This document shows positions 25,598-50,397 of a stretch of 64,000 nt of DNA, in pieces. This stretch comes from Xestospongia muta. Lineage: Eukaryota > Porifera > Demospongiae > Haplosclerida > Petrosiidae. The notes beneath the pieces are model-generated. The model saw nothing but the letters and a program-made list of their open reading frames with translations, did not search any database and had not been told where the DNA came from. The stretch spans positions 5,000,932-5,064,931 of the forward strand of contig OY848925.1 of NCBI GenBank assembly GCA_963693285.1. Direction: 5' to 3'. Positions within the stretch are counted from its first letter, which is position 1; each line of letters begins with the position of its first letter. Both the position numbers and the translations under genes were made by a program.

Positions 25598-26124
25598 TTA
25601 TGATATACCTGTACATTTCACAGCAGCATCTTCATAATGATGACAGTTATGGACACCGGGAGGATTACTATGACACTGCATGAGATTAGCTTCATTGCCT
25701 GTACATCGCATGTTATCAAAGTATATAGGACCAGTTCCTGGACCATAGATGTGAGAGGATACCACTCCTCCTGAAAAAGAAAATGTAAGTGTATTAATCT
25801 CTAGCTTGATTGCCTCTTAATAATAAGGTTCAATATATAAACCACCAATATTTATTAAAGTTAAATCAGTAAATCTCAGTATGTCCTTGTAAAAAGTAGT
25901 AATGTCATACTATATATAGTAAGTCTTACCTTCTAGAGTAGCTCCCCCCATTTGATAGCCAAGTTGTCTACAAGTCACTCTGGCCTCTCTCACATCCCAG
26001 ATATCATCACATATTGTACCCCATATACCATTAAAACAAATCTCCACTCTACCCTCCATATTACTTGATCCATCAACTAGTCTTATAGATCCATGTGTAC
26101 ATCCATCCGTACCAACGGATTGAT
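25598..26124 (-). CDS. SRCR domain u14 and stop, gene 2
   Basis: 5' half 25930-26124 ([36 protein letters not shown]) and terminal exon 25598-25769 ([26 protein letters not shown] then TAA). The exon also holds a possible donor, ACAG/GTATAT at 25609. If it is used, the frame continues in phase into HECT exon 25325-25442. Confidence 0.75.

Positions 26125-50397: not shown

Follow-up and report, generated by a model that had tools for sequence, protein, structure and literature searches.

Gene organisation in the window

The window analysed here, a stretch of 64,000 nucleotides, occupies positions 5000932-5064931 on contig C9; the genome comprises 158 Mb in 28 contigs. A whole predicted M8-SRCR gene, termed gene B, lies on the minus strand of this window (50397-25598), and all of its features described below are on that strand. 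A hand-curated exon prediction gave 105 exons with 18,054 coding bases, encoding a protein of 6017 aa. The sole stop codon in this model is the terminal one, 103 of the 104 introns are of the GT-AG type and one is GC-AG, and 97 of the 104 are in phase 1. The curated model replaced a self-trained prediction made with weak exon penalties, which over-split exons and merged genes. The automatic models were imperfect, giving 112 exons and 5758 aa for gene B, compared with 105 and 6017 after curation, and running the next copy, gene A, beyond both a frameshift and its usual end.

Exon 1 (50281..50397) carries the start codon, a hydrophobic, signal-peptide-like stretch at the N-terminus recognised by eye, and a CIHD motif. 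Exons 2-12 (48149..50162) encode the M8 propeptide, catalytic and C-terminal region, as assigned with the Pfam profile PF01457 and the leishmanolysin structure 1LML; exon 13 (47952..48089) encodes a Cys-rich module, and exons 14-105 (25598..47597) encode 47 SRCR domains and the TAA stop. The putative signal peptide, M8 domain, Cys-rich module and 47 in-frame SRCR domains claimed in the original prediction are thus all present, and its coordinates and domain count were exact. An AATAAA poly(A) signal lies 55 nt past the stop (25538..25543). A continuation of gene B into the HECT exons downstream was considered and rejected, because the chain closes with the TAA and AATAAA after its final SRCR domain and because predicted chains containing HECT occur at both ends of the array described below. 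No membrane segment was found at the C-terminus, where the protein ends four residues past the last SRCR cysteine; the product would thus be secreted and soluble.

A tandem array of six copies

Gene B is one of six tandem copies, whose starts on C9 lie at 5114948 (g1), 5085061 (g2), 5051328 (gene B), 5023130 (gene A), 4990797 (gT) and 4973695 (gZ). Two others reach into the window on the minus strand, namely the 5' part of gene A, the next copy (1..22199; 51 SRCR domains in full), and the 3' part of g2, the preceding one (53790..64000; 58 in full). With profiles derived from gene B, the two SRCR halves were equal in number within each copy (g1 50, g2 58, B 47, A 51, gT 29 and gZ 54), which gives a range of 47-58 SRCR domains for the five copies that possess M8 exons. 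Automatic models gave one chain per copy with the same start, and counts of first and second halves of 50/48, 58/55, 47/45, 50/48, 29/27 and 54/52 (g1, g2, B, A, T, Z).

Two of the copies have altered protease parts. In gT (C9:4990797-4976919) most protease exons have been lost and exon 2 is fused in frame to exon 24, open to its phase-1 donor; its product would apparently be a secreted, SRCR-only protein with 29 SRCR domains. In gene A, a 2-bp deletion in exon 12 leads to a stop after 522 aa, past the catalytic region and before the SRCR part, and downstream of this frameshift no stop was seen in the SRCR exons compared, 57 out of 60.

Pieces of a HECT ubiquitin-ligase gene accompany the array. 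One such 3' piece lies upstream of gene A on the minus strand (22702..24732; PF00632, E 3.6e-61, from hand-joined exons), and a second one within the window lies upstream of gene B at 50899-52912. Of three HECT-gene 3' probes, all matched upstream of g1, g2, gene B and gene A, two matched upstream of gT and one upstream of gZ. Longer predicted chains containing HECT lie on either side of the array, with Pfam HECT E-values of 1.5e-18 for the upstream chain and 3.5e-48 for the downstream one. These pieces upstream of the copies and longer chains at both ends suggest that each duplication of the array unit probably carried along the 3' end of a HECT gene, which we take to resemble AREL1. In the downstream chain a filamin repeat scored 0.5 bits below its cut-off.

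The protease part

The M8 protease family is best known from Leishmania. Exons 1-12 of gene B (50397-48149) matched PF01457 with 132.5 bits against a cut-off of 21 (E 2.5e-38), the match covering profile positions 163-382 of 529 only, and leishmanolysin (PDB 1LML) was matched by the M8 part at E 1e-19. The HExxHxxGF motif, present as HELTHAFGF in exon 4 (49406..49500), and the distant third histidine (SHWE) and ELM in exon 7 (49030..49086) all align with the corresponding stretches of 1LML, leaving the zinc site intact. We take the histidines of the motif and the distant one to be the zinc ligands, and the methionine of ELM to form the Met-turn. Among the other copies, the four in which exon 4 is present all show 100% identity over this exon.

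The CIHD motif of exon 1, presumably a candidate cysteine switch, is shared with a Dysidea protein (P0001), and modules similar to the Cys-rich exon 13 occur in P0001, as judged by eye, and in M8 genes neighbouring the array. An M8 tree, in which the neighbours were represented by the second of them (N2), placed gene B and N2 as sisters with support of 100/95 and 37.6% identity. Gene B also grouped with the Dysidea avara protein at 95/79, a value below the program's starred level, with gene B, P0001 and P0004 all flagged as long branches; on this grouping, the genome is likely that of a demosponge. Taken by its sequence, the protease of gene B is likely a secreted M8 zinc-protease zymogen.

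The neighbouring genes lie on the plus strand of C9 in two predicted M8 stretches (5143409-5155553 and 5156167-5164026), each with a Cys-rich exon, NIDO domains (three and one, respectively), Ser/Thr-rich repeats and one SRCR pair; the automatic model ran one chain through several genes here, making the gene limits provisional. In the second stretch the M8, NIDO and SRCR pieces all pass their Pfam cut-offs. In the first, NIDO and SRCR pass, and M8 is weaker (25.6 bits against 21), the HExxH exon being missing from the model.

Are the M8 and SRCR parts one gene?

The original prediction was of a single gene joining the protease to the SRCR chain. Intron 13 (47598..47951) is the longest intron of gene B, at 354 bp compared with a median of 51. 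Within it lies an acceptor at 47899 that scores 5.7, against 5.6 for that of exon 14, and that would lead to a stop after 16 codons. The possible alternative last exon so defined (47850..47899) would be preceded by an intron of 52 bp, near the median, and is followed further down intron 13 by an ATTAAA. All five copies that have the junction contain it, and inspection by eye showed one substitution in its short frame. The model does not require a 6-nt microexon in intron 13, although one is possible.

These features would suit an arrangement with two products, in which the M8 transcript ends at 47899-47850, yielding a short protease of roughly 600 aa that is secreted, and the SRCR chain would be expressed on its own or only as part of a minor isoform. 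Such an arrangement would resemble Dysidea P0001, which ends soon after its Cys-rich region and has no SRCR domain, and would be in keeping with the frameshift between the M8 and SRCR parts of gene A. Against it, the frame upstream of exon 14 has a stop five codons back and no ATG in between, and the exon 14 acceptor is of median strength with a matching phase 1. The donor of exon 13 and the acceptor of exon 14 are also kept in all five copies having the junction. In gT the 5' end of the gene is joined to the SRCR part by a deletion that keeps the frame, an outcome that chance alone would give one time in three, and the neighbouring predicted genes also combine M8 and SRCR pieces. We thus regard two products as quite unlikely, and expect from the predicted exon chain a fused M8-SRCR product, perhaps beside an M8-only isoform, for which the alternative acceptor offers a plausible route. 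The claim of a single gene with an M8 domain and 47 SRCR domains is in this way supported by the open, mostly phase-1 chain, the kept junction sites, the gT fusion and the neighbouring genes, and has to be qualified in that the alternative acceptor could also give an M8-only transcript.

Assembling SRCR domains in tandem is difficult and the exon model is a prediction, so that an M8 gene and an SRCR cluster might have been wrongly juxtaposed by assembly or annotation. Exons 13 and 14 nevertheless occur as a pair in four of the other copies, each at its own position, at 95.9-99.3% identity to gene B and with copy-specific differences, which makes an artefact of this kind highly improbable.

The SRCR chain

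Of the 47 SRCR domains, 45 are encoded by exon pairs and two by single exons (exons 30 and 39). Pfam SRCR was matched in three stretches of an 888-aa query containing the first three domains (E 1.9e-53); the other 44 rest on exon pairing and home-made HMMs, and the count for gene B is largely by construction. Two-SRCR units are repeated with a period of 883-897 bp in exons 46-75 (32583..39248). SRCR domains of group A are encoded by two exons and have six cysteines, whereas those of group B are encoded by one exon and have eight. Neither group fits gene B cleanly, as 45 of 47 domains have two exons yet 37 of 47 have eight cysteines.

The available text of PMC7043408 describes SRCR cation sites in SALSA, site 2 being formed by D1019, D1020 and E1086 and site 3 by D1020, D1058, D1059 and N1081, and ligand binding is reported there to be lost in either single mutant, D1019A or D1020A. 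Under our alignment, on which these counts depend, 4 of the 47 domains of gene B (3, 4, 5 and 47) carry site 2 in its strict form, while with D, E, N or Q allowed site 2 is found in 12 of 47 and site 3 in 4 of 47. The SALSA dual cation site is thus not a chain-wide feature of gene B. All eight SALSA cation-site residues examined are found in domains 3-5 (45159..46633). Lying near the protease, these three are the strongest candidates for binding a ligand with the help of calcium and would likely use the canonical calcium-dependent grip; most of the others, without the cation residues, may act as spacers or bind in another mode.

A regular-expression control counted CDD.W per core motif and gave 6/44 for gene B compared with 27/28 for bird DMBT1. 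The counts were 14/20 and 16/19 in two sea urchins and 14/18 in a scallop. Among sponges, four Amphimedon proteins gave 18/23, 3/17, 1/22 and 1/21, and Ephydatia, Oopsacas and Geodia gave 1/14, 5/24 and 5/21, respectively. On these counts, a sparse cation site appears to be common in sponge SRCR proteins. Four Amphimedon SRCR proteins among the hits of a protein search matched at 33-39% only. The genome is rich in SRCR, with at least 173 matches counted after scoring 150 of the 4936 first-look candidates.

Constraint on the protease and SRCR exons

Five copies were compared by aligning their initial 5 kb; gT was left out, as it is without most of the exons there. In the M8 part, 2.4, 2.4 and 5.6% of sites vary at codon positions 1, 2 and 3, against 7.2% in introns; the corresponding values for the SRCR part of these 5 kb are 5.6, 5.6 and 7.5%. 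Over M8 exons 1-12, ten pairs that are not independent of one another showed 135 synonymous and 129 nonsynonymous differences, for a pooled pN/pS of 0.28; the pooled value over exons 14-19 was 0.37. Distinct gap events numbered 2 in 3140 exon bases compared with 17 in 1860 intron bases, or 2 and 27 when counted copy by copy, the two exon events being the 2-bp deletion in gene A and the loss of about 111 bases from gZ. This third-position bias, together with pN/pS values below 1 in large blocks and the contrast in gaps between exons and introns, argues that the exon chain of gene B is not due to chance.

An exon-by-exon comparison with gene B used only ungapped matches covering at least 90% of an exon; frameshifted exons drop out, and the resulting count of stops favours intact exons. 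It covered exon blocks 1-45 and 78-105, exons 46-77 being mostly near-repeats. On this basis, pN/pS for the M8 exons was 0.73 in g1, 0.44 in g2, 0.27 in gene A (11 of 12 exons) and 0.31 in gZ. Exons 14-23 gave 0.41, 0.41, 0.45 and 0.55 (g1, g2, gene A and gZ), and exons 24-45 gave 0.36 in g1, 0.36 in g2 and 0.40 in gene A (21/22 exons each) and 0.44 in gT (13/22), with no full-length ungapped match to these exons in gZ. For exons 78-105 the values were g1 0.66, g2 0.62 (27/28 exons), gene A 0.58 (26), gT 0.56 (26) and gZ 0.31 (11). The Cys-rich exon 13 has too few changes for a judgement, giving ratios of 0.93 and 1.24 and two that are undefined. A single stop was seen over the five other copies, in the best matches of g2 to exons 24-45, and a wrongly paired exon may explain it. 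The M8 exons and the SRCR blocks compared thus appear to evolve under constraint.

These values bear on another explanation, namely that the fusion is real but its SRCR tail varies near-neutrally, through slippage and unequal exchange, and has no targeting role on what would be a conventional secreted enzyme, a digestive or a matrix protease. The repetition of two-SRCR units every 883-897 bp, the range of 29-58 domains between copies and the loss of cation-site residues from most domains would all be compatible with it. In contrast, pN/pS of 0.31-0.66 in exons 14-23, 24-45 and 78-105, with a single stop among the well-matched exons of the other five copies, indicates that the SRCR blocks still look selected, and we consider a near-neutral tail rather unlikely.

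Comparison with known systems

The original prediction knew of no described M8-SRCR system and proposed a domain search. Three protein searches, which yielded 38 hits of 7372 candidates, 58 of 3063 and 77 of 2734 and together 162 distinct hits, found none with PF01457 and PF00530 together in precomputed Pfam assignments, within lengths of 224-1942 and 1995-6347 aa and among relatives sharing exact 5-residue words; the search with 58 hits comprised 56 SRCR proteins and two M8 proteins. Our literature search found no paper linking leishmanolysin or peptidase M8 to SRCR or to sponges, and the titles and abstract openings from a broader search named no such protein. In Amphimedon, 296 SRCR genes have been described, with 13 Astacin domains among them (PMC10855680); the words 'peptidase' and 'leishmanolysin' are absent from the main text of that paper, although its supplementary domain tables could list M8.

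The further statement that a protease is usually absent from SRCR tandem proteins should be moderated, as trypsin-SRCR proteins (in the available text of PMC6767649) and the Astacin domains of sponge SRCR genes are already in print. As far as our searches reach, the joining of a protease to SRCR domains is of a known kind, and what appears new is the combination with M8 and the length of the tail.

The closest likenesses are each partial. Animal leishmanolysin-like M8 proteins, such as Dysidea avara P0001 and the ciliated left-right organizer metallopeptidases P0146 and P0154, have an M8 domain as in gene B, and P0001 also shares its CIHD motif and Cys-rich module. Unlike gene B, however, these relatives have no SRCR domains, and P0001 is 655 aa long, with a C-terminal tail that looks hydrophobic by eye. 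DMBT1/SALSA-type proteins share the long SRCR chain, with all eight cation residues kept in three gene B domains, but have no protease and, in bird DMBT1, keep CDD.W in nearly every core motif. Enteropeptidase, neurotrypsin, trypsin-SRCR proteins and sponge Astacin-SRCR proteins resemble gene B in combining an extracellular protease with SRCR, but their protease families differ. The vertebrate enteropeptidase and neurotrypsin also have far fewer SRCR domains than gene B, neurotrypsin having far fewer than 47. The single SRCR domain of enteropeptidase helps to clamp its protease, according to the available text of PMC9663175. The neighbouring M8-NIDO-SRCR predicted genes on C9 share the M8 domain (sister to that of gene B in the one placed in the tree), the Cys-rich exon and SRCR at the far end, but differ in their NIDO repeats, Ser/Thr-rich stretches and single SRCR pair. 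By its sequence, gene B is a striking combination of ordinary parts, brought together by domain shuffling.

Proposed role

We consider it reasonably probable that gene B is a tandemly amplified animal gene, most likely from a demosponge, encoding a secreted M8 zymogen with an exon-shuffled SRCR tail, which adheres to or is retained at targets. One mRNA would join the M8 and SRCR parts, the protein would be released in soluble form, the SRCR chain would be a tail that sticks to microbes, mucus or matrix or is retained there, and this tail would place the M8 protease at its target. Positioning of the protease by the tail had been proposed from the start and is still reasonable, tempered by a strict canonical cation site in only 4 of 47 domains.

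A bolder extension, which we offer tentatively and as doubtful, concerns the array as a whole. Tandem duplication, with gain and loss of SRCR units and of the protease, might have produced a variable family of guided proteases, comprising secreted protease-SRCR effectors together with the protease-less gT, as a diversifiable sponge arsenal that cuts what it sticks to.

Gene B couples an M8 protease to a recognition domain that is amplified in sponges, in one gene of extreme length. If it is made as one chain, recognition and cleavage would be united in a single secreted molecule of an early-branching animal. Its interest rests on the predicted single transcript and on the natural series of full, protease-less and frameshifted copies, which offers a ready comparison of the roles of tail and protease.

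Other M8 loci in the genome

At least 16 other M8 exon matches were found elsewhere, on contigs C1 and C5. The neighbouring genes on C9 were not among them, presumably missed because their single exons score too low. No SRCR halves were found in two 10-kb stretches near these other loci (C5:710.5 kb and C1:27.4555 Mb). On the plus strand of C9, repeated predicted reading frames were noted at 5164-5184 kb, which to our eye look caspase-like; one 280-aa piece gave no Pfam match at E 0.01. The matches away from C9 included C1:27.46 Mb, C1:9.90 Mb, C5:712-752 kb and C5:900-915 kb, those on C5 being apparently in tandem.
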